From Tachypleus tridentatus (Eukaryota > Arthropoda > Merostomata > Xiphosura > Limulidae): DNA of 64,000 nucleotides. Each line of letters opens with the position of its first letter. Within the stretch, counting starts at the first letter, position 1. A program made the translations under genes and the position numbers. The stretch is from the NCBI RefSeq assembly GCF_004210375.1, contig NC_134825.1:43766348-43830347 (forward strand), read 5' to 3'. Shown in pieces: positions 1 to 58,419 of this stretch. The notes beneath the pieces were generated by a model, which did no database searches, was not told where the DNA came from, and saw nothing but the letters and a program-made list of their open reading frames with translations.

Positions 1-258
1 ACTCCTCGTAACTTAGACACTATTTACATACCGGTTTACTTGCCTCAGTATGAATGGTATTCCACTGTGAGACCTATTTATGTAAATAAGGATCCTTAAT
101 CCCAGCTTGAGCACAGGAATAAGATTCAAAGTTAAAGATGGACTGTTTACTAAATACACAGTCAAACACACTGTTATTTTCATGAGTTGTTGTAAAAAAA
201 AAAAACTACCTATTTTTAATACACAAAGTAACAGCACAATTTCTCTATTTTGGTTTTT

Positions 259-533
259 GCCCGGCATGGCCAAGTGTGTTAAGGCGTTCGACTCGTAATC
301 CGAGGGTCGCAGGTTCAAATCCCAGTCGCACCAAATATGCTCGCCCTCCCAGCCGTGGGGGCGTCATAAATGTGACGGTCAATCCCACTATTCGTTGGTA
401 AAAGAGTAGCCCAAGAGTTGGCGGTGGGTGATGATGACTAGCTGCCTTCCCTCTAGACTTACACTGCTAAATTAGGGACGGCTAGCACAGATAGCCCTTG
501 AGTAGCTTTGGGTGAAATTCAAAACAAAACAAA
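259..533 (+). mobile_element. tRNA-Thr-headed SINE, full length (family 1)
   Basis: This copy serves as the reference for family 1. It has a tRNA-like head with an A box (TGGCCAAGTG-type), an anticodon-loop region reading CTCGTAA (CGT, threonine) and a B box (GGTTCAAATCC). A body of about 170 bp follows with the recurring segments 'gactagctgccttccctcta' and 'gctaaattagggacggctag'. The tail is an A-rich CAAAACAAA stretch. 23 copies or fragments occur in the window, 9 on the plus and 14 on the minus strand. The structure is that of a Pol III-transcribed SINE mobilised by a LINE. This copy has a one-base insertion in the D-loop region (AAGTGTGTTAAGG). Confidence 0.9.
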
Positions 534-694
534 GTGTTTCGGTTTTACGCTGAAAATACAATTACATGAAAACCGTTCACGAACTAGCTGGTTTAGTTCT
601 GTCAGAGACGCTAGAGTTTTCTCCCATAATAAGTAGATTTATATCCAATATTTTCTATACGTGGTGTTTATAAAGTGATTTTTTTTTTTTTCAT

Positions 695-829
695 TTAACA
701 CACCTACGAAAAGTGGGGCCTAATAGGCCCCAGAGCAACTTGAAAGGTTATTAATATTAGGCTAATAATTTTGTATTTAAATGAAATTGCCATTTAAATC
801 CATTAATGAATGGATCAACGAGATTCCCA

Positions 830-864
<35 letters not shown>

Positions 865-919
865 GGGGAACGGGCTTGGAGAAATCAGGACTAGAAACGT
901 CTTTTCGTTGGAGTGTTAA
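695..919 (+). mobile_element. Non-autonomous piggyBac element carrying a 28S rDNA fragment
   Basis: TTAA at 695-698 and 916-919 bounds the element. The left terminus CACACCTACGAAAAG and the reverse complement of the right terminus, CACTCCAACGAAAAG, match at 13 of 15 positions. Positions 715-794 appear identical to 56198-56277 in the coding piggyBac element downstream, including the palindrome GGGGCCTAATAGGCCCC. The element has no transposase. Its middle (806-888) is 28S rRNA sequence. I infer a deletion derivative, mobilised in trans by the 56-kb family, that acquired rDNA. An alternative is that the rDNA entered by recombination after insertion, but both termini are in place, which favours capture within the element. 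Confidence 0.85.
806..888 (+). pseudogene. 28S rRNA gene fragment inside the piggyBac derivative
   Basis: The segment runs from ATGAATGG through 'gagattcccactgtccctat', 'ctatctagcgaaaccacagc' and GGGAACGGGCTTGGAGAAATCAG. I recognise it as the highly conserved eukaryotic 28S region containing the R1/R2 insertion neighbourhood. It is in rRNA sense on the plus strand. By memory it differs from arthropod 28S at two places: GGATCAACGAG where arthropods have GGATTAACGAG, and CCAGGGGAAC for CCAAGGGAAC. It is too short to be functional rRNA and is flanked by transposon sequence on both sides. A 63-codon open frame across it (810-1001) is an rRNA artefact. Confidence 0.88.
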
Positions 920-1057
920 GTTCTGTGTAATGCACTATATTTTAAACTACGTGATAGGTTTGATGTATCTTCAGTATAAAGTAATCAGTAATTTCACGTA
1001 AGTATATGTATTCATAGTAAGTAACTTTGATCAATTTAAATATATATAGTTTGTTTC

Positions 1058-1315
1058 TAAATTTTACGCAAAGCTACACGAGAGCTATCTGTGCTAACCA
1101 TTCGCAATATAGCAATGTAAGACGAGAGGAAAGACTGCTAGCCATCACCAACCACCGTCAACTCTTGGGCTACTCTTTACCAACGAAAACTGGGATTGAT
1201 CGTAACATTATAACTCTCCCATGGATGAAAGAGCAAGCATGTTTGGTGTGAAGGGGTTCGAACCTTCGACTCTCATATTATGAATCGAGTGCCATGACCA
1301 CCTGGCCATGCCGAG
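1058..1315 (-). mobile_element. Family 1 SINE
   Basis: Complete but diverged copy in reverse orientation. The tail is at 1058 and the tRNA-like head ends at the complement of CTCGGCATGGCCAGG near 1315. The anticodon-loop region is mutated. Confidence 0.85.
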
Positions 1316-1711
1316 TACATATACTCCCTGATTTCATTGTATACAGCTAGTAACAATAACCTTGGAAACAAAGTGAGAATGTTCCACTCACTCGGAAAAG
1401 GAACTGTAGGTGCTATGATGTACAAACACTTTAACTAGATTTAGAATAGTTTATTTTTCATGAACTTAAGTGGACTGAATATCTGGAAGAATTATATTAA
1501 TTTTGCAAATTTATTTGGGAAGTTTGAAAACACCTGAACCGAATAAAAAAGTGATATAAGTACAATGTGTCGTTAAAAACAAAATGTTTGATTGGACAAA
1601 CACGGAAGTATTTTCTCTAAAGATAAGTTTTTTATTTTTGTTCTCACTCGAAATTTACCGCTGTTAAAGGTAACATTTTTTTAAAATATCCAAACACCGA
1701 AGTTGGATTTG

Positions 1712-1893
1712 GATTGAGTGTAGCCTAATGGTTATTCTGCTGGACAGCGAATCCAAAAATTCGTGGTTCGCTTCCAGTAACTGCAACATCACGCTCCGTA
1801 ATTTGGGATTGTAATGATGGTCGTATCCCACTTTTTCCGTTAGAGTAACGTAAGAGTTTACAGCAGGTTCTGTTGACGAGCTGCATTCTCTCA
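1712..1893 (+). mobile_element. tRNA-like SINE of a third family
   Basis: The head has an A-box-like TAGCCTAATGGTTA and a B-box-like GGTTCGCTTCC at about 1764-1774, with an unrelated body. The locus near 27966 shares the phrase 'CCAAAAATTC' followed by a degenerate B box and is probably the same family. Boundaries are approximate and no target duplication was identified. Confidence 0.5.
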
Positions 1894-2769
1894 CACTTCA
1901 AACTTATGAACAGACGACACAGGTAGTATTTATGTAATTTTGGATGGCTTGTTTCTGAGACCCTAATAAAACTGACCATGAATAGATGCTGTAAAAAATA
2001 AACAAACTCGGAATGTGTGATTCCGTAAACACATCGTTTTAGTGTCCAGTAGTTTCATATAAGTTTAATCTTATCCTATTTACGTGTTTATACAATAAAG
2101 GGAAAAAACAACGCTATATTTAAATTAACCAATTTATAGGGGGTAGAGTTTAATAAATAGTTTAATATATTAACTTTTTTCCTTAAAGAAAGCGCGTGCA
2201 TAAATTTTGTATCAGTCATGTTTAGAAAGTTTTCAAAATTCATTTTTAAAAGAAGGAAATGTACTTTTACATAAATATCTAATAAGAGAATTATTAAATG
2301 TAAGTTAAAAATTATTAATTTATAGCAGCTCAAAATAAGCCATACTTATTCTGTGATTAATGGTTTTAAATTAAACAGTGAAATTATGAAAGTCTTTCGT
2401 GGATGCAACATCGTTTTCATTACAATATGATGATAAGAATAAATTTTCGGTAAATCACAAGAATATTAAGGTACGTAACTTCGATACTGATACATGAAAG
2501 TATTCTGTGTTAACTTACATGTCTGCAAGTGTTAACAGGTAGTTTAACGTAGTCAAACATTCAATTTAAAGAAGCAAACACTTGGGTGGTTTAGACAAAC
2601 ATGTGAGGGCACAGAAATAAATATTAAGTTAAAACGTTGTTTTTCCCAAATTAGCCAAAGAGATGATGAAGCTTTTTACACATCATCCATGATTATCTAG
2701 GTAAGATTGACAACCAACTATTAAAGCCACGCCTAACTGAATATCTAGGGACGATTTAGAGCTCGCTAT
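1894..2769. other. Gene-free upstream stretch
   Basis: AT-rich unique-looking sequence with no convincing coding potential, no recognised repeat and no tandem structure. The short minus-strand frame at 2088-2333 has low-complexity composition and no recognisable motif. Confidence 0.5.
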
Positions 2770-2963
2770 TGATTTGTTAAGACGCTAAGTGTTCCGCCCA
2801 CTAGCTTCGTTCTAGCCAATCACTAGCAGGAACATTTAACCCCATGTTGTCATTCCCAGTAGGAAAATAACTGTCAGATTCAGTGTAAGCGAATCACTAG
2901 GACTTGTAGTACGTCTCGAGGGGCGAAGCGTTTATACAAAGCGCCGGTAAACAGAGAAAGATT
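2770..2963 (+). promoter_or_regulatory. Candidate Zic promoter and 5' leader
   Basis: The block directly upstream of the Zic start is less AT-rich than its surroundings. It contains CCGCCCA (2794-2800), a CCAAT box in GCCAATCA (2816-2820), and an arthropod-type initiator TTCAGTGT (2879-2886). A TTTATA at 2931-2936 lies downstream of that initiator, so it is not its TATA box. An in-frame TAG at 2907-2909 closes the reading frame above the start codon. The transcription start is inferred, and an additional upstream exon cannot be excluded. Confidence 0.35.
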
Positions 2964-4017
2964 ATGAAACATGGACTCGCTATACGAAATCCGGCATTCC
3001 GCTTTGTAAACGTAGCCGGTTCACGCGTTCTTTCTCGTTCTGACCTTGTATTCGCGCAGGGTGTAAATGGTGTAGCTACGGCCTTTCCCTTGAACTCTTC
3101 GGCAGCAGATTATCACTGCGGCTCGGACATGTTGAACCCCTTCATGGACACAGGCCACATGGGCCCTCTCAAGCTGAGCCCGCCGCACGCTATTTCAGGT
3201 GAACCGACAGGACACCACACACAGGGAAACCATCAGTTTGCAGCTCAGACCAACGGCTACGCTGGACCTCATACTCACCACCATCACCATGGTCATGTTG
3301 GTAGCTATGCTGCACGGGACTTCTTCCTACGAAGGGAACACATGCCGACTTTAGCCAGTAGTCTAGCTACCCACGATGGACTCAGCACTAATGGGTCCGC
3401 GATGTTTGTACCCTCCTCGGCGACGCTGCACGGTGCACATCACACGGGAGACCCTTCTTCCACGCACGTGCTTTTTCCCGGTTTTGAGTACTCTGCTGCC
3501 CACCACACTGGACATATGAACGGTCAAGTCAGACTTTCTTTACCTGGCGCTGACATGTATGGACGTCCAGACACTTTTAACCAAATTGGTGGTCCGAGAT
3601 CTGACCACCTAGCTGGAACCTATGGCGCTATGAACATGGGGCATATGAACATGGGTCCCCATGGTCCTGGAGCTTTCTTTAGGTACATGCGGCAACCAAT
3701 TAAACAAGAAATGACGTGTCTTTGGGTAGATCAGGAACTGCAGAGCCCCAAAAAACCGTGTAACAAAATATTCACTTCCATGCACGAGATAGTGACTCAT
3801 ATTTCGGTGGAACATGTTGGTGGTCCCGAGTGCTCAAATCATGTATGTTTTTGGCAGGACTGTTCTCGAAATGGACGGCCTTTCAAGGCCAAATACAAGC
3901 TGGTCAACCACATACGGGTTCATACGGGAGAGAAGCCTTTTCCCTGTCCTTTCCCAGGATGTGGAAAAGTCTTTGCCAGGAGTGAAAATCTTAAGATTCA
4001 TAAACGAACACACACAG
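2964..4017 (+). CDS. Zic: Zic/odd-paired transcription factor, exon 1 (zinc fingers 1-3)
   Basis: This exon encodes residues 1-351 plus the first base of codon 352 of a GLI/Zic-class nuclear DNA-binding protein. Residues 56-74 ([19 protein letters not shown]) match the conserved Zic N-terminal motif. A His-rich run (104-111) and [10 protein letters not shown] (111-120) follow, as in other Zic proteins. Fingers 1 and 2 form the tandem CWCH2 unit: C252-x-W254, C266, H279, H284, then C295-x-W297, C300, H316, H320. Finger 3 is C328, C333, H346, H350, and the exon ends at HTG. ATG 2964 is the first Met after the in-frame TAG at 2907. Zic proteins pattern the neural tube and mesoderm in vertebrates, and odd-paired controls segmentation in arthropods. 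The first 55 residues do not show a clear ZOC motif. The exon ends at a phase-1 donor, ACACAG|GTAAGA. Confidence 0.96.
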
Positions 4018-7000
4018 GTAAGAAAACAATCACTCTTAAATTTTACTGTTCACTTCTCTAAAAAATACTCGGATCTATAAGTGTTGATTACACTTGTAAA
4101 TATTCACATTTAAATATCTCAGTGCTAAAGTATCAATTTAATCCTTCGCTGCATTCTGCAATGCTGTTTAGCTCTTGTGCGGGACATTATGTTTTGATAG
4201 TTGCTACGACGTCGTTGTTCGTGCTACATAATTTTGAAGCCACTAAAACAGGTTGATTATAATTTTACACTAGAATCATTTGTTTTGCGACGCCATAGTT
4301 ATTTACACTTATGCTGCGCCACGAACTGGTTGCGTGTTTTTAGGCCTACTTCTCTCAGTTACGTAATATATTCATCTGGATATACGTTCATTGCAGTGCA
4401 AACTTTACAAGCATCTGGTATTTGAACATTAATTGTAATAAATCTGCAGACTTTTCCAACATATTAAGCTTTGATTTGTCTGGGAGGGAATCTCGTACAA
4501 GGAAAAGCATATTTTATCCTCTCTTTTTTATTTTTGTTTTCAAGTTTAAGAAGGTAAACAGCTGCAGACGAAAATCATTGAACATCGGAGTACCTTCAGG
4601 ACTTCTGTGATGTCATATTATCTCGTGGTTGGCGTGTTAAAATCACATTATCCAACAACATATAACCATCGAATAAGGTGGGAATTCCCCAAAGATGTAT
4701 TATATGCGTAACCAAGGCAACTGACATTATGTCAGCACATAGGAAAGGAAAGTTATAATATGCAGTAGATTCTGCAACACACTTATACGAACAGATAATA
4801 TGACGTAAAGTCCAACGCACGTAGCAACGAAACAGTTAAAACATGCTACAGTGTAACATGTCTTTTCACTGGAAAGAATCAAAATTCGACTGCTTTATCA
4901 GCTTATTAGACAAAGTATGGATGCTTCCTAATTTGAAGCTGTTATCGTTGATGTGGAGATAATTACGGGGCAGTTTATAAAGTGCAGAGTTGTGCTACCA
5001 TGCGATATTTATGTTGGATAATACCTCATAATATTCTATATAGAATAAACGTTACACACTTGAATTTCCTGTATATCATCTAAAGCTACTGTTTGTAAGA
5101 TAAACTACTAGTTGTTATTATTAGTAAGACAATTTCGCCATTGTTATGACTAAAATGTCTTCTCAGTGTTAGAATTTTTTAATAAATTGTCTATGTTCTT
5201 GAAAATCAACGACTTTCAAACAGATACACGGGGACTGTTTGACGGTTTCGTAGCTACATTCATAGCCAGGTTTACTTGATATTACCGGTGAACAGCGTTG
5301 TTGGTAAAAGCATTCATGCGGGGATAAAACATGGCGACCGTTATGGTGAGCGTACTCAAATACAGGCTGACATAAAACTCGATAATATTCTCAGATATCA
5401 TGACGAATTGATCAGTATTTGATTTTTTATGTATTTTTTAACAATTATGTTGAATATGAAAACATTAATATTAAAGTTAATTTTAAAAATTAATGTTAAC
5501 TTCCAATAAGAATTAGCTACCCACTTGGGTCAAAACTAAAAAATTAACCCTGTATCTTTCTTTAGCTGTAAGCACTACTATCTCCCGGAGTTCAGCCAGC
5601 TTATAAAATATAGGCTATATCCAAATCTATACTAACAAGAAAAAGAACATATTTACACTCAAACCATTATAATAATTAGATATATTAAGCATTCTAACCA
5701 ATACTTTTAATAAAAGAGAAATATAGACAGAACATTATCGTCTTCCTAAGCTGAATTGACATGTTTGTATACATCTGTATTACCGATCTTCCATCTGTAG
5801 TTAAAACACGGTTAAACTATGATAAATATTTATATATCCTGTGAATAACACATTTTTTTTCCTGATAAAGTTATAGATTGTTCAATGAAACCGTTCTGTA
5901 AATGAAGTAATGTTGTTCCAAGTAATCATGCCAGTTTCGACTCTGTCAACTTTCTGCTCTTTAACTAGTTATTTACGACAAATTTTAAGTCCAGTAATAA
6001 AATAGTTTTTATAATATTCTTCTGTCTAGATACCTTTATATTTATTTTTTCTATTAAACATTAATATATTTGAAGTATTTTTTTTCTCTTTTAATTTAAA
6101 CTTGAACTATATTTATTGATACAAGTACAATGTACTCTATTATGCTTGGGATAAATTGTAAGGAAGATTGTTTATGTTTGTTTACATCTTGATCTTGGTT
6201 GAGTCACCAGCTCATTTAAATGTGCTTTATTTTTATTATTTATGATTCTCTTAAGTGATAGTTTTGATGATGATGGGAAAATATTTATTTCCGTTCGTAA
6301 TTTCTTTTTTCATTCTCACATGAAATATTTTAAAAGCAAATTAGTGAAAAGCAGTACAGTTATAAAAGTACTTCAGTGAATGGTTAACATGGTTCGTTCT
6401 CGATGTCATTCAGTTCAGTTCTATCAATTACAAAACTGCTTTCACTTAGTTTTAGTTTCATTTACCTGAACAAGTAGAAGATATATGTGACTTTAACTGT
6501 TGCTAGATGTAATAAAACAAAAGACAATTTTCAAATCACATCAATAATTAGGTACTGCGAGGGCTTATATTACAGAAACACAAGTGCCCCAGACTAGTAG
6601 AATTGGCAAGTAACTAGTAAATGATTGTGAAAGTAGATTCCATTGTCGTTATTAATAGAAATGGTGGAAGTAAATAATGCGCTATTTATTTTGATTTCCC
6701 GAGGGATAACATTAGTTTTAACAAGAGATTTTAATGAGGTTTATTATGTTAGTGTTGGGATTTTAAAATAAACTAGATTTACGAATACATAAGGTTTTAA
6801 GAAAGAGTTCAAACCATAGTTTTATACATCATTATAAAATATAGTATACATGTTATAACTAAGAGTCCGATATACAAAATATTACCCTGTTTAAAGGTTG
6901 GATAGAGAAGTCATATTGACGTTCCTGTCTAAAATGTTACAAAATACGTTTTTCAAAACAAAATTAACAAATCTATTGTTATAATCATCTATACTATCGT

Positions 7001-8584
7001 GACCAACATCATTCATGTTTCTTTACATAGAACTATATTTTATATATTAGGATTCCTTTAGTTTTAATTTCAACTAATATTTCTGGTATTCTAAAGTCTA
7101 ACTCGTGCCTGCCTTTGGCGCCAGAAGAGGCGAGGTTCAACGAACAAGTTAACGTGCTCGTTATTGATTTGTCTGGCTCAAATAACAAAGTGTTAAAACT
7201 ATTGGCTATGTAACTATGATTTTTCCACCTTTCTTAAACTAAAATGTTGAATACTTCTCAAACTACTCTCGTACCAGGAACCGTTGGCTGTCGTATAGGG
7301 TCCACGCTCAATGACGTCTTTAGGTTTTTCAGCGAACAGTTGCAGTTTAATCAAATGCAAAGTTTTCGTTAAATTCTGAATTTTATGAAATAAAACAATT
7401 AAAACTCTTGTCAAAGTTTAAACTTGTTTAGTTCAGGCTTTTCTCTAAGTCGTACACAATTTAATCTAACATTTAAACTTTTAAATTATTTCAAGATATT
7501 CTAAATGAAGTTACTAAGGGTGGTAATGAAACGAAACTTTAATAAGTTTTGTGACCTTGCTTTGTTATGTGATGAAAGAACACTGACGAGGACGTCTGAA
7601 CTTTACTGTGCATAGAAACAAACAAATAAACAAAAAATATAACTTATTCCACCTATGGTTTTTCTCTGATAATGTCACACGTATTTAGAATAAATGCTTA
7701 TACATACAGTTGTGTGGTAAATGGTCACTTATAATGTGATGCCACTAAAATATTGTTTGGCACTTAATCGACTTTCAACTTTTGATAAAAGTTCTATGGT
7801 TATTGTTTACTTACGATTCGATTCAATAATGTATCTAATATATAACTGGTGCTTTATTTATTCTTTACTTATTTCTATTGCAATGTCACAAGCGTAGCTA
7901 ATGAGTTGACGCTTTGGTTATTCTTCACGTGTTTGTGATTTGGTGTCAGTAATAGTCGGTGCTTTTGATTGATGTTTACATACTTATGATGTCAGTATTT
8001 CTTTTGAAAGAAAAGTTTGTATTGTTTATAAAATTATTTAAGCAACTGGTATTTAGTTTTAATAATCACTTTTAAAATAAGTTACTGTTGTGAAGAACGT
8101 TCATTTACAATTTATTTGTTGTTCGAAATAAAATTTGCGTTTTATTGGAAAAGTATTGCTTCCAGCGTTAACAACAACTTATGATCCAATGTCAATTGAA
8201 TTGTGATTGATGTCAAGGTATTATATCTTAAATAGATACCATTGTTTAATATGTCGTTCACATACACTTCTACTAAGTGTCAGCTTTATATTTCTAATAA
8301 TGCCCAAGTTGTTATTGTTTTTTATATCATTAACACTCTTCGTCATTCAGTTTCGTCTATTTTTTTTGAAAGTGTGGTAATCCGGTATCAACGGTTGTGA
8401 ATGAATGAAAGTAATGCCGTTATGGGCGTTTGATACTTCGATGTCAACACTATGTTGTATATACGAAAAGTCCTTATTTTGAATGTGGTTATGTATGTTT
8501 TGATTACTTATCACCCAGTTTGTTTTAAATGTGTCTCACAGCGAGTAGTTTTGGAGCTCAAGGCACTCTGTTTGTTTGTCACAG

Positions 8585-8676
8585 AAATTTCATGCAAAGC
8601 TATACAGACTTAAAGTAAGAAAGCTAATCAATAGCACCCACCGCCAACTCTTGTGTTACTATTCTTGTGGGATTTA
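8585..8676 (-). mobile_element. Family 1 SINE fragment
   Basis: Only the tail and part of the body survive: a reverse-orientation GCAAAGCTA motif followed by CACCCACCGCCAACTCTTG. The tRNA head is absent. Confidence 0.65.
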
Positions 8677-8950
8677 ACTCGTTCATAGCCTAATCGTAGT
8701 GTCAAAATGCAAAGCGCGTTTTTGCACAACAAACAACTTGAATCTTTGGACTCACATCCCGGATATGCTATTCACTGGGCCACACCTAACCCTGGTTATT
8801 TTGTAAAAGATTTGTTATCGGTATATTACAGTAACGTGCTCAGTCTTTCATTCAAGGTGTCAATTATTACCACTGTTTTATACTTTAATTTTTATTTTGC
8901 GTTAAATAACACTGTAACTTTTTAAAATAACATTTTAGAAGGTTAACATT

Positions 8951-9074
8951 TTGTTTTGAGGTTAGGCAGTAAAAGTACACGATGGACTATTTGTGCTGTG
9001 GCCACCATGGGTATCGAAACTCGTTTTATAGGGTTGTAAGTCCGCAGATATACCACTGTGCCACTGTGGTACTA
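8951..9074 (-). mobile_element. Short tRNA-like SINE (family 2)
   Basis: Family 2 is about 110-125 bp. Read on its own strand it has a head containing GCGGACTTACAACGCTAGAAACC, split here as a shorter diagnostic GACTTACAACG-type motif, then a region with GGTGGGCAGAGCACAG and a tail TAGCTTTGTGCTTAA plus an A-rich end. This copy shows the complement of those motifs, including 'gttgtaagtccgcagatata' at 9033-9052 and CCACTGTGGTA at its head end. Confidence 0.7.
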
Positions 9075-10221
9075 CAAGATTAAGAAACACTTTTAAATCA
9101 TGACATTAGCTGTATTTAAGTAAATAAATGTGAATAACATATATATGTGTATATATCGTATATTATAACAAGACTTCTGACGTTGTTAACTTCTAATTTT
9201 CCACACGAAAAGTTTGGAAATAAAACAGTTAACTTCTGTTAATTATCGCTGCTTTTTGAGAGTATTGGAGAAGTTTACTGGAGTATCAGCCTAAATGTTC
9301 ATTGACTGGGTAGCGCATAATCTTCGTGTAAAGTCACGTGCTTATACAGTGAGTAGGCAAACATTTTCTAAAAATAACCTTTGCTGTACAGGAAACAGAC
9401 ATGCGCAAAACACTCGGTGGCTTCGTCTTTTATCTTTCTTGTTTTGTAGTTTTCGTGAATTGAAAATTGAAGTGTAGTTTTAGTATTAAATATTTTTGCC
9501 ATGAAGAATTCACGAGGAACAGATAGACAGATTAATACTGTGGGCTAAACCTTCAGGGAAGAAAGGTAGAATCATTGTAATCATACACTTATACAAGCAA
9601 CAAAAAAGAGAGAAAAGTGTGTTATCAAGTCATTTTAGCATGGTTCTTAAACCTTCCTCGCGCTATCGAGACGCCAACTGCTGTGCTGCATAGCACCCCA
9701 GTGACGGGGTGACAAGGTCTACATACTTGGGTGCAGCCCAGGTGTTACCGGACTGGGGTAGAAAGAATTTTTTAATCCACTGAGAGCTCAGATTGAGATA
9801 GAAACATTGATTACTGCTCGTGTAGACTCCGCATAAGTCGTTTAATTCCGGTAATTTATGAATGCTTTAGGGTATTATACTTCAAGAAGAAACTGTATAT
9901 GTACGTACAGTCACAGCTCATAAATATATTGACTCATACCACATACAAAAAAAAAAGAATGCTTGCCTATCGAGATTCTAGAGTTTCTTGTTTTGATAAT
10001 TCAGCAAACTTTATACTTTATCAAACTTAGCGCTAGAAGTGTATAAAAAATGTCAACTGCGGATATTATCATTACCAGCTATACCAGTTCGATTGCTACA
10101 CGATAAAAACCTTCATGTGATTAATTATTAGTAACATACTAATGTAGCACTAGCTGTTACTTGTGTTTTAATATTTGTCATGTAAGCAATATCAAAGAAC
10201 ATTACAAAACTCATTAAAGTG

Positions 10222-11125
10222 TAAATACTGAGATGATGTCACTAATACTGTTAATACAGAAGTTATGTCACTGACGTTGTTAATAATGAAGTTATGTTAC
10301 ACTGTTAATAAAGTTATGTTACTAATACTGTATATAATGAAGATATGTCATTAACACTGTTCATACAGAAGTGATGTCACTAATACTATTAAACCTAAAG
10401 TTTTATCAGTAACACAGCTAATACTAAAGCTATGTTACTAATATATCTAATACTGAAGCTATATCACAAAAACTGTTAATACTGAAGTTATGACACTAAT
10501 ACTGTTAATACTTAAGGTATGTAACTAACATTATTAATACTAAACTTATGTCCCTAACACTATCAATATTGAAGCTATGTCACTAACACAGCTAATACTG
10601 AAGTTACGTTACTAATAATATTAATACTGAAATTATTCACTAATACTGTTAAGCCTGAAGCTCTGTAGCTAATACTGAAGAGGACCCAGTGTGGCCAAGT
10701 GGTTAAGGCGCTCGACTCGTAATCCGAGAGCCACACTAAACATGCTAGCTCTTTCAGCATTGGGGGCGTTATAATGTGACCATCAATCCCATTATTCATT
10801 GGTAAAAGAGTAGCCCAAGAGTTGGCAGTGTGTGGTGATGACCAGCTGTCTTCCCTCTAGTCTTACACGGCTAGCGTAATTAGCCCTCGTGTAGCTTTGT
10901 GCGAAATTAAAAAAACAAAACAAACACACTGAAATTCTCAGTAATTTTACAAGTTCAGTATTTCTTTTCCTTTCAAATGAAGTGTAAATTCTTTATGACA
11001 ATTAAAAAACAACCTGCTGCGTGAGACAACAAACTAATACTGAAAATAACCAGTAATTTATGTAATACTGAAGTTATGTCACAAAGACTGTTAATACTGA
11101 GTTCATGTCACTAATACATGATATA
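10222..11125. repeat. Degenerate minisatellite, ~30-bp unit, split by a SINE
   Basis: The unit is approximately AATACTGAAGTTATGTCACT plus AACACTGTT, repeated about 15 times from 10222 to 10680. Remnants recur at 11035-11125. The intervening interval is a family 1 SINE and flank, so the array is older than that insertion. Units are strongly diverged. Confidence 0.75.
10683..10926 (+). mobile_element. Family 1 SINE inserted in a minisatellite
   Basis: The copy has the tRNA-like head, but most of the T-arm is missing: CCGAGAG is followed directly by CCACACTAAACATGC. The B box is therefore lost. The body and the A-rich tail are intact. Confidence 0.85.
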
Positions 11126-11265
11126 GAGGTTATAGAACTTGCGCTTACTCTTCATATAATTGAAACTGTCACAACTACTTAGATCGTGGTGAAAATCTGC
11201 TATACAATAAAGTTTTATTCCCAACATACAGTAAAATGTTCTACGGGTATGTTAAGATCATTCGT

Positions 11266-11506
11266 AAATATTGTAGAGTTATTTATTATATATATAAATA
11301 TTGTAGAGGTATTTATTATATATATAAATATTGTAGAGGTATTTATTATATATATAAATATTGTAGAGTTATTTATTATATATATAAATATTGTAGGGTT
11401 ATTTATTATATATATAAATATTGTATAGGTATTTATTGTGTATATAAATATTGTGGAGGTATTTATTGGATATATAAATATTGTGGAGGTATTTATTATA
11501 TATATA
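11266..11506. repeat. 30-bp minisatellite, 8 units
   Basis: The unit is AAATATTGTAGAGGTATTTA followed by TTATATATAT, repeated eight times at exactly 30 bp with a few substitutions (AGAGTT, AGGGTT, TGGAGGT). Because 30 is a multiple of 3, two overlapping open frames with an IYYIYKYCRG-type repeat run through it. These are artefacts of the repeat, not genes. Confidence 0.93.
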
Positions 11507-11894
11507 CTTTTGTGACTATATTAAATTCCTAATTTAAATGATGATGCTTGGAAAGGATGTGATCAGATATTTTTAAAATCACGTACTGTCACAATGTTCT
11601 GCAAAAATATATGGAGTTTCAGGCTTATTTCACAAGTAATCTCTTAAATTATTTGTGATGTAATCTTCTGTTACGTGTGGACAGTTATGTTTGTTTTTTG
11701 TTTTGTTTATGCCGAACTCTTATTTGTCCATTTATATAGCCTGGGTAAACTTAATTCAAATTTTGTTGTTTAGTTTCCTACCAACATACTTCGAATCAGA
11801 ACTATGTCAAAGACACAGATGTAACCCCATCCTCACCTCGTGTGATTCAACTGTAAGCTTGCGTGAAGGTATTACGTTAAATTTCAGAATTCAG

Positions 11895-11960
11895 TCCCCA
11901 CGGTGGGCAGGGTGCAGATGTTCCGTTGTATAGCTTTGTGCTTAAAATCAAGACAAACAA
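11895..11960 (+). mobile_element. Family 2 SINE, 3' fragment
   Basis: CGGTGGGCAGGGTGCAGATG is followed by TATAGCTTTGTGCTTAAAAT and an A-rich tail. The head is missing or unrecognisable. Confidence 0.6.
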
Positions 11961-12095
11961 CGATACATCACAATACGTTCTTTTCTACCGCATTAGATTT
12001 TAACCTCAATTTGGTTAGCAGCTGTGAGAGTATACTTGTATTTGAAATAAAGATTAATTTGTTTAAAACGTCATTCTTATTTCTGAACATACAAA

Positions 12096-12150
12096 TAAGC
12101 GCAGATAGCCCTCGTGTAGCTTTGCGCGAAATTCAAAACAAACCAAAAAA
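12096..12150 (+). mobile_element. Family 1 SINE, 3' tail fragment
   Basis: Only GCGCAGATAGCCCTCGTGTA to the CAAAACAAACC tail is present. This is a 5'-truncated insertion. Confidence 0.75.
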
Positions 12151-12285
12151 AGCAAATATACAAATAATTGATGAATTCATTACACTCCAACTTTTCTCAC
12201 ACTTGATTTTGTTTAAAGAAGTTCGCATCCCTTAAATGTATGTGAAACACATTCGTGTATTTACGTACCTTTTCATAATTTACTA

Positions 12286-12357
12286 ATTAGCCCTTAAACG
12301 GTGGCCATCATCAACTGGTGCTGCTACCTACAACATTCCTGCTATTTAAGGGTTAAT
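12286..12357. mobile_element. Tiny TTAA-flanked inverted-repeat element
   Basis: The left arm ATTAGCCCTTAAACG (12286-12300) is the inverted counterpart of the right arm ATTTAAGGGTTAAT (12344-12357). Read inward from both ends, the arms are TTA(G/A)-CCCTTAAA. The TTAA plus CCCTT arrangement is typical of piggyBac-type MITEs, but at 72 bp the element is tiny and the left TTAA has become TTAG. Confidence 0.4.
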
Positions 12358-12800
12358 GGATGTCACTTTGACCACCTAAAACAACTAAACAATGCTTTTT
12401 TTATTGTGTTTATTTTCTGTTTTAATTAAGAATTATATACTTGTACACAGTTGTATGTATGTATAAGTAACTTTAACCACGTTATAGTTACATAGCTCGT
12501 GAAACACCGCCTAATGGCTCTTTATAACTATAGAAATATCGTTGAGAACTGATTCCTTGTATTTGTTTCATGTCGTTTGTGCAAATAATCACTGTATCGT
12601 TCAACAAAAGATACTACTATACGAGAAAAACTCTTCGAAAATGCATACGAAGTATGAAACATTTTTATGATAAATCTCCTACTGTAATACGTTTCATATT
12701 TCCACCCACACCTCAGCCAGATGAAGAAAACCTGAGTGTTAGATCAATCTGAAAAGTTCGATAACGTCAAAATCTCTCTTTGAAAGTTTGCCTGTTGACT

Positions 12801-13049
12801 TGAAATTTTGCGCAAAGCTACACGAGAGCTATCTGGGCTAGCCGTCCCGAATTTAACAGCGTAAAATTACAGGGAAGGCAGCTAGTCATTACCACTCACC
12901 GCCAACTTTTGTACTACTCTTTTTTCAATTAATATGGGATTGACCGTTACATTATAACAACCCCAACATATTTGGTATGACGAAGATTCGCACTCGCAAT
13001 TCTCAGATTACGAATCGAACACCCGAACCACCTGGCCATGCCGAGCCCA
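12801..13049 (-). mobile_element. Family 1 SINE
   Basis: Near-complete, reverse orientation. The head at 12975-13049 shows a diverged B box (GGATTCGCA-type on the plus strand reads AGATTCGCACTCGCAA). Confidence 0.85.
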
Positions 13050-13606
13050 TTCTTTGAAAGAATACATGTGTGTTTGTAACAATAAAACTCTACCCGAAAC
13101 ACTATGGAGATATTTCGATGAACATTGAGAAGTAGAATATACTATCATCCTTTCATATTCGGGTACGTACAGTGTAAATACGCTACTAGAATTTACTGTA
13201 GTAAATAACGGTGTGCATGCGTCATGTAGAGAAATTTGTATATTTAAGCTTAACAAGCTGTCTTGTTTTCTTAAAGAAAACAAACGGGTGGACATGGGGT
13301 GTTCCATGGAGTTATTTGTTGTTTCTCATCCCGTGTTTTTCTAACCATTTTAGCAAACAATGGATATGTAATATTGTATTTAACTTTTATCTTTAGAACG
13401 TATAATTGTCAATTTGAAAATATCACCATGCAGGTTTATAATTACATCCGAATATTACACGTGGGGTATGTAGTTAATGATATATCACGTTAAAACGCTA
13501 TCAATGCGTATACATGCAGACACAGGTATGAATAGGTTAGCATGATAAAATATCTACATATGATACTCACACAAAGAGAAACTAAAATACTTGCATAACG
13601 CTTTTA

Positions 13607-13729
13607 GTCACGTCCCGTGGTGAGATGGAGGTAAGTTTACATATTTACAGTACTAAAATCCGGGGTTTAATTCCTCGCGGAGGATACAGCGCATAGCCCA
13701 GTGTGGTTTTACTCTAAACAAACAAAATA
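13607..13729 (+). mobile_element. Family 2-like SINE
   Basis: GGGGTTTAATTCCTCGCGGAGGATACAGCGCATAGCCCAGTG is the decayed middle region (B-box-like GGGTTTAATTCC), followed by an ACAAACAAAAT tail. Confidence 0.5.
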
Positions 13730-14401
13730 TTTGAATCAGTTAGGTACTTAAATTTGCCCATAGTTGCCACATCGGTGCTTAATCAAAATATTCACTTTTT
13801 AAGGACGTACTTTTAAGAAAAGATAATTGGAGAGCTAACGAAACACTGCACCTGACTTCGGAATCCCCTTAAAACTAAAAATAAATATGAGATGGATCAC
13901 ATCGGACTCCCTGAGAAGTTACTAAGGTTACTAATTTTAATGAGGGTTCACTAGAGCTCACCCTGTAAAAGTGCAATACATAATTAGATAAATAAAGAAG
14001 TTTGGTTTTCGTCACTCCGCGTTTCGTAATAATTATTATATATTTTTCAGTTGTAAACTTAAAGGGCGTATTGTGAAGAATTCATTGACTTAGTTGTATT
14101 TTGTTGAAGAAGTGGCAGTACTGGTGGTTAAATGTTTTTCAGAGTTTTACAAATGATTTGCTGGACAGCTCTTCTGTGTGAGCTGTTTACCTTAAAAATG
14201 AAATACAACGAACTAAACCACATTTTGCAACGTGTGCAGTCGTTGATTTATAAGTTGTGTCTACCAGAAGAGGTGAATGTATCATAAACATTTCAGTATT
14301 GTAATTTTGCATGTCTGCAGGCAGTAGCTGCCAGTTTTAGGCTTTAAGTTTGAATCGTGTTAGAAGTCTCTACTAATGTGAAATTGGTCAATATGTGTTA
14401 G

Positions 14402-14670
14402 TTTGTTTTTGAATTTCGCGCATAGCTACACGAGGGATGTCTGCGCTAGCCATCCCTAATTTAGCATTGTAAGACTAGAGGGAAGGCAGCTAATCGTCAT
14501 CACCCACCGCCAACTCTTGATCTACTCTTTTACCAACGAATAATGAGATTGACCGTCAAATATAAAGCCCCCACGGCTGAAAGGGCGAGCATGTTTGATG
14601 TGACGGGGATTCGAACCCGCGACCCTAAGATTACAAGTCGAGTGCCTTAACCACCTAGTCATACCGGACC
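14402..14670 (-). mobile_element. Family 1 SINE, well preserved
   Basis: Reverse orientation. The B box reads GGGTTCGAATCCCC on the minus strand (complement at about 14607-14620), and the anticodon region is a CTTGTAATC variant. Confidence 0.9.
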
Positions 14671-15566
14671 TTGGTCAAGATGATAGTTTTCAATTAATCA
14701 CTTTTTTCAAACATATTTCGAGTAAGATTTCCGGACCGAAAAGGGGAATTTTGCAAAACACCGAGGTTCTTGTTGCTGAAAAGGAAATAGCTGTTTATTT
14801 TAACTTTTATATTTCACAAGGCGATAAATCATTTTTAAAAGTTTGTTCTTAGGAAATAGAATCCATAAAATAGGACACTGAAATATGGTTGGGACGTAAT
14901 CTGATTGGGTTGCTACATTTAAAAGTGTAAATATTCTTTTTTGAGGACAACAGTGACAATATGTTTCATATTAATATGCTATAACATTGTCAGATTTTAC
15001 TGAGATTTAATTAAGGCTAAGGGGTGTCATATAGAAATTAATTGTAATAAAAATCATACATTAAAAACAGATACATAGAAATAAACTTATACATAAACAC
15101 TGAGAGACAGATTGATATAGATGGATAGATTACTAAACAAAAGTTAATAAAACTACAATCGTTCGTGATGTAAGGTAACTGGTGTACTAATTGTATGAGA
15201 TTATTTTTTTTTTATAATCCTTATGTGAAGAATGATCAGAATGGGAGCAGAACAAGGTCTTTAGGTCTGTGCTGTGCAGTGTATCAGTTTAGTGTATTAT
15301 TAACTAGCCGTTAAATGCATTAAAGTAGAAACAAGCACGTAATGGTTTTTAATGATAAAGAAGATCGAGTTAAAGTATAATATGTTTGTTGAAAGAACGT
15401 GACCACCCTCTGAACTGATAAGAATTTCATAATCACATGGTGATTTGTATCCTGTGAGAAGGTTTGAAACGATAGAAATATTTCTTATACTATATATTAT
15501 CACACACAAAAAATAAGGTTTTGAGAAAATAAAAATGCATCTTCAAAATCTCTCTTACTAGAATGT

Positions 15567-15679
15567 ATGTTTTCTTATAGCAAAGTCACATCGGGAATCT
15601 GCTGAATCCACCGAGGGTATTCGAACCCCTAATTTTAGTGTTGTAAATCTGTAGGCTTACCGCTATACTAATGGGGTAC
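15567..15679 (-). mobile_element. Family 2-like SINE
   Basis: AGCAAAGTCACATCGGGAATCTGCTG marks the tail side. GGTATTCGAACCCC and TTGTAAATCTGTAGGCTTAC mark the head side, with TACTAATGGGGTA at its end. Confidence 0.6.
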
Positions 15680-16060
15680 TTACTTACCGGGATGAATCTG
15701 AGAAGGCCAAAAAATATTTTTAAACAGAGACAATATACGAAACATTTTTCAGTGGCAAGTTCGTGCTTGGCTTCGTTAAGTAAGTTACAGACGGAGTGTA
15801 TAATGTAAGCATTAATCTCTCTAGTTAGTAGGTTATATTTATATTCTTAGTCATAAGTTATAAGGATAACATTATACATGATTTACATATTTATATCCAC
15901 GTATTTTATATCATAATTATTAATATTCACAGAAATGTTGATACTGACAGACTACACAACGCAAGCATTCGTGGAGGTTTCACAGTCTATGAATTGAAAC
16001 TTAAACTTTAGACTGAACTGTAACTATTGTTACTTACATACTATACAGTACAAGTGTTCG

Positions 16061-16237
16061 TATAAATTTCACAGTGTAAGTATTGATACGAAAAACGAAA
16101 CTGTAAATTTCATACTAACATACTTCGTTGTAAATGTCGATTCTGATATAAATTTCACAGTGTAAGTATTGATACGAAAAACGAAACTGTAAATTTCATA
16201 CTAACATACTTCGTTGTAAATGCTGATTCTGATATAA
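16061..16237. repeat. 86-bp tandem duplication
   Basis: Two nearly identical units start at TATAAATTTCACAGTGTAAG (16061 and 16147). The copies differ at very few positions (for example TGTCGATT versus TGCTGATT), so the duplication is young. Confidence 0.9.
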
Positions 16238-18635
16238 TAAGTTATGTACGGTTCTTAACGACAAGTTTCGTATTATAAATATTGGTACGAATAAGAGGTT
16301 ATTTCACATTAAAAGTATTAGTACTAATAAGTGACTATTGATGAAGAGCTAAGTTTATTCAAAGTCTACTTTTAACAGTTTTCCTTCATAGCAGCTCATG
16401 AACGATTTTGTTTACTTTCATTAGATTAAGAAAATGGTTTAATTTGTTAATTGAACTGTTCTTATTTATTCATTACGTTGCCTTTAGACAGAAATGGGTT
16501 TGTTGTTTTAAATACGGTTAATCGTTCTTTGTGGGTGGAGATTAGCTCCTGTTAATTAAGTTGTTCTAGTGATAGAGTGTTTTTAAACCTTGTTTTAATC
16601 TGATAGTCATATTTAATGGTCAGACAGTTTCAGCAGCATATTGGTCTGTTGGCAAAGAATATTTTAAAAAACAATTTGTTCATCACTCTATTTTTGAACT
16701 CAAGCAGTTCGGTTTGTTCCATTTTTGCTAACTCAGAATAAAAAAAAACGAAAGACTAATTTTTTGTAATAAACCATGGATGAATTAGTTCCGTTCAAGC
16801 TTTGACAGCTACACTTCTCTCATCACTGCGTTTGGAATATAATCTTAAATACACGTGAGAATAATACTGTCACGAGCTCGAATCTCGTGATTTTTATGCG
16901 AGTTTTGTTACTGCTAAACAAATTTGCATGTTTTCAGCCATCTGCTTAAAATATCTGTATTAAAAATACTTCTCAAATGCTATAAGTGGTCTACATATAA
17001 AAGACAGATTGTTAATTTGTAATTTAGTGTCTGAACGAAACGAATTCATCAGTTGACTTACTTTCGTTTGTTATAGTTTTGATCATAGTGTAGTTTCCTA
17101 ACAAGGTAACTTGAGTAAGACATTACTTTTTTTTTCACCTTAAAATTATCGAAGGGATTACATTGGCTTTTTTAATATTATTTTTAAAACTATTTGTGCA
17201 CCACATTGATTGTATGTCCATAATGTTGTTGGGTTTAGGATCGCTAATAATATTATAGCATAACAGACAAAAACAAAATTATTCAAGATAATGGGATAAA
17301 CTTTGACTTAATGCAACATATTGAGGCGTCTTTCTCATTGTGAAATACTAAGTCATCTTTCACGTGAATAATAGACGAACACTAGAGCGAGTAAAATGAG
17401 TTTTAGGGTCAAAGGATGGTAGCTAAAAATATTATTGACACTTCTGAAAATGACTTTTTGTTTTAGTAGTGATGACACTACCAACATTAGCTAATAAAGG
17501 TGAAAACCATTTAGTCACTGATAAAAATGTTTGTGGTAATCTAATGATGAAAGGTATGCTAATGAAGAAATGGAGGTGTATTTGCTTAATATAAAATAAA
17601 ATTATGGGTTTACAACATCAGGCAGTAGCCAAGTGGGAGTAGCTTACATAAGGATGTTTGCAAACAAAAAACCAAAACGCCAGGGCGAAATATATTTGCT
17701 AGAAGAAATAATGACACGACATTGTTTATATCGAATATCTTTTCGAAAGAGATCATCATGGAGGAAAAATTGGTCCATGTTTCATTACCACAGATTTGCT
17801 CTACTTACTTTGGAGCAGTGAGTACGATTATAGTAGCCAAAAAGTTGGCTGTGGGTACTACTGGTTAGCTATCTTTTCTTTACTATATCTGTTTAGAACT
17901 AGAGATTTATAGCGCAGGTATACTTTGTGTGGCTTTGCTGAAATATTCGAAACGACAAACATTAAAATGTACAAAGATGTTAAAGATGGATAAATTGAAG
18001 CAATTGACTTTTCGCAATCTACATTATTATTGGTGTGATGGTAATGAATTTGTTTGAGTATGTGTGCTAGAGGACAGTAATGGACCAAATAGTATAACAA
18101 ACAGATGACTACGTGCTGACTTCTTCAACATATTCGATGCACACTGTTTAATGTTTTTGTTTTGTGGGTTCATCTTAAATCTATAATAGAGGAAAAAAAA
18201 AGGAAAGTCACAGAAAAACCTGTTTACTTGTTTTAGAGCAAGAGCTACATTGGTCTATCTGCTTTATCCAAATAATGGAATTGAATCCAACAACAACATT
18301 TGTGGTAAGCAAGTGCAACGGAATCGGACGCTGGCTTCAAAATTAGATACTGGCGTTGTAAGTTCTACCCTGCAGAAATGAACGAAACGTTCAGCAACAC
18401 GTGTTTTAATTTCAGTTTTCCTACTGATATCATCGTTATGTTCTTATGTAGAATTTTAATAGTCAATAACGTGGGATTTTATTATATAGAAAAAATAAAA
18501 TATTAAAAAATTTAAATAGTGTAACTTAATATTTATAAATACACCGATGTCTAAGGTGATAAAGATCTCGATTAGTAGATTATTGTATGATATGGATATT
18601 AACACTTATCAATAAATTTAATTTCTTAAATTAAT

Positions 18636-18690
18636 AAAGCAGAGAACAACGTTTCGACCGTATTAGGTTATCAGGATAACAACTCGCTCT
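18636..18690. mobile_element. Penelope-like terminal fragment
   Basis: GAACAACGTTTCGACCGTAT and the following GGTTATCAGGATAAC resemble the terminal motif seen at 20340-20390 (GAACAACGTTTCGACCTTCT). It is short and isolated. Confidence 0.4.
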
Positions 18691-18691
18691 T

Positions 18692-18788
18692 TGCTGAAAG
18701 GGCGAGCATGTTTGGTGGGAGGGAGATTCGAACCCACTACCCTCGAATTAGGAGTCGAGTACCTTAACCACCTGGCCATGCCGAGCCT
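18692..18788 (-). mobile_element. Family 1 SINE, head-only fragment
   Basis: Only the tRNA-like head and the first body bases remain. The B box complement is near 18727-18735 and CCTGGCCATGCCGAGCC closes the fragment. Confidence 0.8.
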
Positions 18789-19370
18789 CCATTATAAGTT
18801 ACTATACAAGTTAAATACAAATGGTGAGGCGAAAGTTCATCGCCAAACGTGTATATCTAGGTGATTAAGCTTGCTGTGATGAGAGAAAGATGCCATTGAA
18901 CACGCTTTTTTCAGCTGTGGGCGCAAAATAAAAGTAAAATAAGTTAGTTATTCGGTTTATAGGGCCTGACAGAACCTTTTTGGTGTAGGGTAGTTTTGTC
19001 TTGCTTTCATCTTTTTGATCTGCAGTTCAAAATTAGATAATCTATATCTGAACCCTAAGGGTTACTTTACCTGGCTTTGCCCCACATGCGCATAATGGTT
19101 CAAATTAAATATAAAAGTGAGAAAATCTCGAAAATCTCCTTGATTTACAAATTATAAATGATAAAAATACGTATTAGAGTATTTAAATACGCACATACTA
19201 TTATTAAAATACAATCATAGTATAAACAGTTGTATTTTCCAATAACTCTTACATTTTCCTGCTCATATATGCATTTCGGTGCAATGGTTTGAGCTGCAAA
19301 AAGTAAACAACAAATTTGTTCAATATTTATTACATTTCAAATATAAATATTCATATTTCTTTAGTATTTT

Positions 19371-19480
19371 ATTTGTTTGTTTGTTCTAAAGAATAAAGCT
19401 ACATTTTACGCTATCTGCGCTTTCTTCAATGCAGGTATCAAAACCAAAATTTAGCCTTATAACCCACTGACTTGCCGATG
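19371..19480 (-). mobile_element. Family 2-like SINE, decayed
   Basis: It starts with GTTTGTTTGTTCTAAAGAATAAAGCTAC (the complement of an A-rich tail). It ends with GGTATCAAAACC and ACCCACTGACTTGCCG, a diverged head. Confidence 0.5.
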
Positions 19481-19620
19481 ATTCAAAGAACGCTTCTCCA
19501 TGCGACATTTATCACACTGTGACATTTCTTGCTTCCGGTAGTTCAATATAACTTTATTAAGCAAGAATTAGCATATCGCTCTTGTGCAAATTTTTATTTC
19601 TGCTAAATTTTCCTTACAAC

Positions 19621-19890
19621 TAGGCCAGGTAGTTGGTGCGCTCGACTCGTAATCTAAGGGTCGCGGGTTCGAATCCCCGTCACACCAAATATGCTCGCCC
19701 TTTCAGCCGTTGGGGCGTTATAATGTTACGGTCAATCCCATTATTCTTAGTAAAAGAGTAGCCCAACAGTTGGTGGTGGTTTGGAGATAACTAGCTGCCT
19801 TCCCTCTAGTCTTACATTGCTAAATTAGGGATGGCTAGCGCAGATAGCCCTTGTGTAGCTTTGCGCGAAATTAAAAACAAACAAACAAAC
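19621..19890 (+). mobile_element. Family 1 SINE
   Basis: The first few head bases are altered (TAGGCCAGGTAGTTGGTGCG). The B box GGGTTCGAATCCCC is intact and the tail ends in AAACAAACAAAC. Confidence 0.88.
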
Positions 19891-56177: not shown

Positions 56178-58406
56178 TTAACACTTTTACGAAAATTGGG
56201 GCCTAATAGGCCCCAGAGCAACTTGAAAGGTTATTAATATTAGGCTAATAATTTTGTATTTAAATGAAATTGCCATTAACTGACCCTATCCCCTTTATAT
56301 TTTAAGGAGCAATAATATTTTGACTTTTCAGACATTTGCGAAATAATATTTAAAAAAAAATTTTAAACATCCACTAAGGGTATTTTGGGGCCTATTAGGC
56401 CCCAGATCAAAAAACATAAAAATGACTTTATTTATTTCCTGAATAATTCTAGAACAGGCCTGGGCAATCGAAAAAAGCAAATTATAGTAAAAATATATTA
56501 ATTTTACAACTTCTTTTCAAAAGATGGATATTTAGGATAATAACTCTACTCCAACAATAATTTTAGACGATCCTGATTATTGCCTAGTTTGCCCACGCCT
56601 GTTCTAGAACATTCTAGAAACTTTACAGAAGTATTTAGAATAATCTAGAATATTCTAGAAGAATCCACAAATCCTATATATATAGGAGCTGAAATCTTCA
56701 AACCGTGTCAAAAATGATATCTCTTGATGAAGCTGTACATTTACTGACAAAACCATCCGACGATGAAAGTGAACATGATAATGTCGAAGACTACTCTGAA
56801 AGTTGTGATGATGATCCTTCTGAAGCCGAAAATGATGAACAAATCGCGCCGTACCCTTCTGAAAGTGAAGAAAGTGATCAAGAAGATCTTACTACGATGC
56901 CAGTGAACGAACTTTTATTCAAAGATAAGAATTTTCTTTATTCAACAACACCTTCAAGGATCAACAGGAGAACCGCAGCTCTCAATATATTCAATGGGAA
57001 CCCAGGCATTACAAGGCAAGCTGCTCCAAGAGTCTCTACACCATTCGAAACATTCAAAATTTTTATTTCTGATAATATGATGGAACAGATCATTCACTCA
57101 ACAAACACCGTCATGAAAGAACCAATTTTTGAAGAAGACCTCTGGAAATGGATCGCAGCTAATCTTTTCCTTGGAATAAGCAAATCCAAAAATGCATCGA
57201 TAGACGAAATGTTTTCAACCGAATTCGGTTTGCCATTTTTGCGAAAACTAATTACACAAGACAAATTAAAAAAATGTGCTCAAAAAATCAGATTTGACAT
57301 CCACTCTCAAAGAAATAGAGAAATCAAAGATGCCGCCATCTCTGGAGTCTGGAATTTTTTCATTTAAAATTGCAAAAACAGTTACAACCCAAGCGAATAC
57401 CTGACAGTGGATGAACAACTATGTAACTTCAAAGGAAGAGTTGGCTTCAGAACATACATTCCGACAAAGCCAGGCAAATACGGAATAAAGATTTGGTGCC
57501 TAACAGATGCAAAGGCAAGTTACCTCCTCAACGCTCAAATTTATACTGGAAAGGCTGGAAATACGACAGAAACAAATCAAGGAAAAAGAATAGTTAGAGA
57601 ATTGAGTCAGCCATTTCTTGGAAAAGGAAGGACAATAATGACAGATAATTTCTTCACAACAATGACACTTGCCAAGTACCTACGAACAAAAAGAACAGGA
57701 CTTGTTGGAACCATACGGAAATCAAGAACCTTCCTGCCTCCTGAAATAAGTGCAAAATCTAGAGAGTTATCACCAAAGTTTTTTTACCATGACGACATCA
57801 CTCTTCTCAGGCACTCAGACAAACCAGGAAAATATGTGCTACTACTGAGTTCTCAGCATCAGTCTGGTGAAGTAGAAGAGAATGGAAAGCCCGAAATCGT
57901 CAATCTTTACACTGCAACGAAGGCAGGTGTCGACACTCTCGATCAACTGGTGAGATATTATACAACAAAGAGGCGATCAAAGCGCTGGTCAGTCTGCATA
58001 TTCTATAACATTCTAGATCTTGCTGCGTACAATGCTTTCGTTCTATACTCGACAAAACATCCAGAATTTCTTCGTCAACATAAATCAAGAGCCAGAAGAG
58101 AATTTATACGGCAATTGGTGCTTGAAATCAAAGAAATTTACTGCAAAGATAATGACAAAACAACCTCATGTGAACCGCCTGCAAAGAGGGCAAAAAGAGG
58201 ACGATGCCATTTGTGCGGCAGATCAAAAGATAGACAGTCGAAAATTGTTTGCTCAAATTGTAAAAAAATGTTTGTCAGAGCCATTCTAAAGTTCTTTGTA
58301 ATGAATGTTGCTAAATCACTGTGTTTCTATTGGAAAAATATATGGGGCCTGATAGGCTCCAAAATCACTTTGGTGGATGTAAATATTTTTTTCGTAGGAG
58401 TGTTAA
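56178..58406 (+). mobile_element. piggyBac element with TTAA ends
   Basis: TTAA at 56178-56181 and 58403-58406 is the expected piggyBac target duplication. The left end CACTTTTACGAAAA and the reverse complement of the right end, CACTCCTACGAAAA, match at 12 of 14. Behind the left end lies the palindrome GGGGCCTAATAGGCCCC (56198-56214). A second, GGGGCCTATTAGGCCCC, is at 56387-56403, and a diverged third is at 58344-58360 inside the right end. The block 56367-56403 is an inverted match to 58344-58380. The transposase occupies most of the interior. Near-identity with the small element at 695-919 suggests recent family activity. Confidence 0.93.
56714..58314 (+). pseudogene. piggyBac transposase (DDE_Tnp_1_7), two lesions
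   Basis: The product is a cut-and-paste transposase that excises at TTAA. I start at ATG 56714 because the GTG at 56705 is weaker. An acidic Ser/Glu/Asp-rich N-terminus (about residues 15-60) leads into the DDE domain. The catalytic aspartates are D233 in LTVDEQL (57410), D311 in IMTDNFFTT (57644) and D407 in GVDTLDQL (57932). Their spacing of 78 and 96 is very close to the canonical 78 and 101. The C-terminus has the Cys-rich zinc domain, starting CHLCGRSKDRQSKIVCSNC. Lesion one is an in-frame TAA at 57365-57367 (codon 218). Lesion two is a shift at the A-run 58262-58268, after which the expected ending VCQSHSKVLCNECC is in another frame and stops at 58312-58314. The unshifted frame runs on to 58414. 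Confidence 0.92.
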
Positions 58407-58419
58407 AACTGTGATAGTA

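Follow-up and report, generated by a model that had tools for sequence, protein, structure and literature searches.

A non-autonomous piggyBac-type element with a built-in fragment of the 28S rRNA gene in Tachypleus tridentatus

Non-autonomous elements that carry fixed host sequence include the Pack-MULEs and the Cassandra TRIM with its 5S RNA; these belong to other superfamilies and hold other gene pieces than the element described here. The nearest precedent is Pokey of Daphnia, a family of the piggyBac superfamily with rDNA-derived repeats. Pokey inserts at one 28S site, and rDNA spacer repeats are found in the autonomous element, while its MITEs mPok1 and mPok2 are without them (PMC3849761). 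For metazoan piggyBac MITEs in general, copy numbers of 50 to 20,000 are given (PMC4912750). A different route is represented by SINE28, a mammalian retroposon whose source is the large-subunit rRNA gene at its 3' end (PMC8010984).

Here, we describe a non-autonomous piggyBac-type element with a built-in 28S fragment, referred to below as the 28S-MITE. The 28S-MITE is like other animal piggyBac MITEs in its TTAA targets, its short terminal inverted repeats, its coding-piggyBac ends and its copy number of about 2,000, which is ordinary for such elements; the fixed 28S core is where it is unlike them. Searches of one open-access library listed no MITE with a 28S core. The rDNA-derived segment stems from 28S coding sequence and is located inside a MITE, whereas in Pokey the pieces are spacer (IGS/ITS2) repeats located in the autonomous element. 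The roughly 2,000 copies compare with the 90 to 110 mPok copies given for D. pulex (PMC3849761). We observed no insertion at a 28S site among the short flanks of 32 miniature and 30 coding copies, in an assembly in which a whole 28S gene was not found. Like SINE28, the element is a dispersed repeat with sequence from the gene for the large-subunit rRNA. However, the 28S segment of the present element terminates around model position 2388 of 3401, short of the 3' end, and its copies are bounded by inverted repeats with TTAA, without the signs of retroposition (a 3' tail and a variable target duplication).

The window that was analysed is a stretch of 64,000 nucleotides (C1:43766348-43830347), and the genome searched comprised 2,167,478,450 bases in 205 contigs. 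An arginine-kinase exon of this genome (L148) matched best the PDB entries 1bg0, 1p50, 1m15 and their kin, which are Limulus structures, as would be expected of a horseshoe crab. In the window, the 28S-MITE occupies 225 bp of the forward strand (695..919), as identified by TTAA at both ends (695-698 and 916-919) and by whole-genome family counts; all of its parts are given below on the same strand. The left terminal inverted repeat (695..713) and the right one (901..919), TTAA included in each, agree in the window copy at 13 of 15 positions, or at 17 of 19 if the alignment is extended, and in the family consensus at 19 of 19. The left arm (695..794) is common to the 28S-MITE and the coding piggyBac and includes a subterminal palindrome, TGGGGCCTAATAGGCCCCA (714..732), which sequence comparison also revealed in the coding piggyBac. 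On reading the sequence, an 11-letter filler, TAAATCCATTA (795..805), was seen to lead from the left arm to the 28S; it may be in part an inverted copy of the initial 28S bases. The 28S rRNA gene core follows (83 bp, 806..888). Its consensus shares 82 of 83 letters with host 28S and reads CCAGGGG at the place of the CCAAGGG of host 28S. Between the core and the right terminal inverted repeat lies a non-28S tag, GACTAGAAACGT (889..900), and the GACTAGAAACG part of this tag is also found after dispersed 28S fragments elsewhere. The window copy departs from the family consensus by three substitutions (at 702, 816 and 909), that at 816 being an additional change within the 28S core. The initial annotation had correctly noted the TTAA at both ends, the 13/15 inverted repeats and the approximately 83 bp of 28S sequence, whereas the 80-bp left end that it took to be identical to the coding piggyBac proved to be 96% identical over 100 bp (695..794 against 56178-56277). 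Folding of the window copy as DNA gave a z-score of -3.96, which is expected since the element ends are inverted repeats. A search of the whole window with Rfam at gathering scores returned no match, and the 28S core alone reached 20.9 bits, under the cut-off of 50.

The coding piggyBac copy of the window measures 2,229 bp and has TTAA at both ends (56178..58406, forward strand), with its frame broken in two. The first transposase open reading frame encodes 220 amino acids (56705..57367, forward strand; Pfam DDE_Tnp_1_7, E 1.2e-06) and the second 335 (57407..58414, forward strand; DDE_Tnp_1_7, E 1.9e-46), the stop codon of the latter lying just outside the element end at 58406. We take the DDE_Tnp_1_7 domain to be the mark of piggyBac transposases. 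At least 35 full or near-full coding copies were found, the window copy included, and the others were 94-98% identical (40 of 298 candidates scored). In 30 coding copies that were cut out, TTAA was present at both ends in 28, the right end was ATATTTTTTTCGTAGGAGTGTTAA in 20, and an open reading frame of at least 500 amino acids was found in only 4. One commonest left end, with AAAATT, was shared by 20 of these 30 copies. The left end of the 28S-MITE reads AAAAGT, and since at least 4 of the 30 coding copies also have AAAAGT, this difference says little about descent. The coding copy of the window is presumed to be a relative of the transposase source.

The extent of the family was estimated with sequence patterns. 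The left 28S junction, probed with a 48-bp pattern spanning it, had 1,979 matches in the genome, and a 31-bp pattern of the right end, with 3 mismatches allowed, had 1,943; the reversed-pattern control gave 0 in both cases. When eight of the right-end matches were opened, all eight were elements of 223-225 bp with these ends and this 28S core between them. A DNA similarity search with the element, in which common words were skipped, yielded at least 25 matches, and the copy number rests on the pattern counts. We then pooled and scanned 44 loci, 31 of which provided 32 full-length copies. Five of the 13 loci left out still had the 28S core (the partial L021, L022 and L023; L101, with additional bases close to the left end; and L096, incomplete in the extracted sequence), and eight were without it (the sister or fold-back loci L024, L085, L087, L090, L092 and L094, and the coding L088 and L093). 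All 32 full-length copies had a single common architecture. Thirty-one were 222-226 bp long and one was 191 bp, TTAA was found at start and end in 31 of 32, and the flank pairs differed in 32 of 32; the copies thus occupy independent TTAA sites. No R1 or R2 insertion was seen in the 32 full-length copies, the choice of which biases against such insertions.

Divergence from the consensus among these 32 copies was 1.2% on average (median 0.9%), a low estimate because the opened copies were drawn from lists ranked by match quality, which favour well-preserved copies; they came from the best 100 matches of each list (1,943; 1,979; 2,980) and mostly from one chromosome. Per site, divergence was 1.1% in the 28S core, 1.0% in the left arm and 2.0% in the right end. 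As in piggyBac MITEs, there was no coding capacity, the consensus was 225 bp long and the approximately 2,000 copies were uniform. A large MITE family, present at about 2,000 sites, has the 28S core fixed within it, in agreement with the initial proposal of a non-autonomous piggyBac-type element that scatters 28S sequence. That proposal had called for a genome search for copies with the same ends and core, and the eight opened matches and the 32 full-length copies are indeed co-linear; a 28S segment confined to one locus, or ends that are not co-linear in other copies, would not agree with the 1,979 junctions and 1,943 right ends.

A pattern for the left end had 2,980 matches in the genome, approximately 1,000 above the count of the 28S junction. 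Among the elements with this left end, those with 28S are the most numerous (1,979 of 2,980). Ten left-end places, close to which neither a right end nor a junction was among the matches listed, were opened: three were 28S-MITEs, two were coding copies and five had the left arm without 28S. Two of the five, L090 (162 bp) and L094 (167 bp), are complete fold-back elements that terminate, like the 28S-MITE, in an inverted copy of the left end. L087 measures 129 bp, and at L085 and L092 a matching right end was not seen. Another locus, L024, holds a fold-back sister MITE from the piggyBac left end, also without 28S. The consensus right end of the 28S-MITE is an exact 19-bp inverted copy of its left end, like that of the fold-back elements. 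This suggests that the 28S-MITE descended from a fold-back MITE and not directly from a coding copy, a conclusion drawn from distinguishing ends that differ by few letters and from coding copies that are non-uniform.

We further investigated 28S sequence outside the MITE family. The 28S stretch of L082, a partial copy scoring 234.5 bits to Rfam LSU_rRNA_eukarya, served as "host 28S", since a whole 28S gene was not found; a pattern for the D3 region had six genome matches, and neither of the two that were opened was a whole 28S gene. A 62-bp 28S pattern across the R2 target had 180 matches distributed over the chromosomes (control, 0), among them those at L067-L082, L105-L144 and L025-L028, and 57 fragments at 56 of the 180 places were examined. 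With the R2 point set where we take it to lie in host 28S, the 5' edge fell 17 to 23 bp upstream of that point in 35 of 57 fragments, and in 44 of 57 the 3' edge was located 114 to 130 bp past it; edges inside the 62-bp pattern are invisible in these figures, the pattern being present in all fragments, and three 5' edges coincide with the limit of the reference. Those dispersed fragments that were compared with the Rfam model terminate at its position 2388 of 3401. Some of the places examined depend on one another, since flanks are shared within L070/L132/L133, L073/L074, L111-L113 and L130/L131. At L070, L132 and L133, the shared flanks surround a 28S fragment, and this fragment may have been copied within another repeat or a duplication. 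A 17-bp direct repeat was observed at the fragment edges of L077. Among the flanks of dispersed fragments (52 on each side), 31% on the right and 21% on the left had hairpin stem scores of at least 7, compared to 8% of 1,000 random window stretches; the flanks and the random stretches were unmatched in base composition, and we base no conclusion on this difference. An upstream 28S pattern had 74 genome matches, contrary to what would be expected if the R2 region alone were dispersed, and a downstream pattern, whose last letters may not fit host 28S, had one. Since several 28S stretches are scattered, and to different extents, these counts are not readable as one clean unit.

Some of the dispersed fragments end in AATCAG and continue into GACTAGAAACG, and the 28S-MITE has exactly the same joint; the GACTAGAAACG tag is not part of host 28S. 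The joint between 28S and tag, together with a TGGACC continuation that is not in the 28S-MITE, was found at 18 scattered sites (9 exact; control, 0), six of which were read. In three of these six (L123, L127 and L147), the 28S fragment is followed by a tail of the form GACTAGAAACGTGGACC(N4)GGTCC or near it, for which Rfam returned no second match; the tails of L123 and L147 are alike for approximately 45 bases and then diverge. At L147, the 28S starts at the same base as in the 28S-MITE. L117 combines the MITE right end and the MITE-specific CCAGGGG with a longer 28S that extends beyond the R2 point by 17 bp on the upstream side, and the MITE left arm is missing; this locus could be a remnant of the capture event or a recombinant that arose afterwards. 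The tagged fragments could also have obtained the tag from another cause, or some of them could stem from MITE relics.

Taken with the fold-back sisters, the shared joint makes us fairly confident that a fold-back piggyBac MITE captured a dispersed, tagged 28S fragment and was then amplified. In a first step, the coding piggyBac family would have given rise to fold-back MITEs with its left end on both sides, and this is supported by the presence of fold-back sisters of such make-up. One fold-back MITE would then have gained a dispersed 28S fragment with its GACTAGAAACG tag, most of the right arm being lost. The left joint of the core, with filler and a short shared sequence, has the look of error-prone end joining, and the filler both mirrors the initial 28S bases and resembles the fold-back centre. 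Finally, the 225-bp composite would have reached its approximately 2,000 TTAA sites, probably with the help of the coding-family transposase acting in trans; a dependence of the 28S-MITE on this transposase is suggested by the shared ends and the TTAA targets, while the scarcity of long reading frames (4 of 30 coding copies) weighs against it. As far as the data go, the 28S core would be a passenger, since its rate of divergence is close to that of the left arm. We infer both this order of events and the absence of a function of the core.

As to where the captured piece came from, we tentatively suggest, as a possibility and not as the expected answer, that some process scatters a defined 28S piece of about 140 bp round the R2 target, the edges of which cluster on both sides and which in some cases is followed by a short non-28S tail, as though this piece were itself mobile (for example, via R2-type or other reverse transcription), and that the piggyBac MITE captured this unit and served as its amplifier. 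If so, the approximately 2,000 copies might be a landing field or a decoy for rDNA-specific retrotransposons, the multiplied 28S stretch being one that we take to contain the R1 target.

Alternatively, the piggyBac family might have entered the 28S gene of the rDNA array itself, and a faulty excision or gap repair might have left the 28S piece behind. The 82/83 identity of the core to host 28S would fit such a direct capture, as would the occurrence of TTAA in host 28S, at the R2 point as well as inside the stretch that was captured. Pokey, a piggyBac family, also resides in 28S (PMC3849761). However, GACTAGAAACG is foreign to host 28S and recurs after dispersed fragments outside any MITE, and no 28S-like flank was observed at the 32 MITE copies (flanks of up to 12 bp) or at the 30 coding copies (6-bp flanks) of an assembly in which a whole 28S gene was not found. 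We consider a direct capture unlikely. The initial annotation had proposed that the family contacted rDNA and packaged a piece of it; the packaged 28S piece is confirmed, whereas the recurrence of the tag on dispersed fragments speaks against the direct contact.

A second alternative, which we regard as improbable, is that the 28S core is maintained by selection, perhaps through an enhancement of transposition or through its own transcription, and is not a passenger. Conservation of the core is no better than that of the left arm (1.1% versus 1.0% divergence), and while the predominance of the 28S form (1,979 of 2,980 left ends) would be consistent with selection, one luckily successful composite would yield equal counts. 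An assembly artefact or a lone chance insertion of rDNA is ruled out by nearly 2,000 co-linear copies, those opened lying at independent sites on several chromosomes.

Whether or not the fold-back capture took the course proposed above, a conserved segment of an rRNA gene is now fixed in a successful DNA transposon family and multiplied about 2,000-fold, with consequences for counting, masking or probing 28S sequence in this genome. The scattered rDNA copies provide a test case for recombination with the array, for the attraction of rDNA-specific retrotransposons and for small RNAs directed at 28S. The dispersed fragments, possibly of more interest than the MITE, share edges and raise the question of how pieces of rDNA exit the array.

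Two minor observations concern the surroundings of these sequences. At C13:112849732-112850015, four matches of the upstream 28S pattern are spaced by 80 bp, which suggests that a 28S piece is repeated there in a short tandem array. In the window, tRNA-like stretches flank the 28S-MITE on both sides, at 267-326 on the forward strand and at 1250-1308 on the reverse strand; with Rfam tRNA scores of 19.4 and 19.9 bits, respectively, both under the cut-off, they are probably tRNA-derived SINEs.
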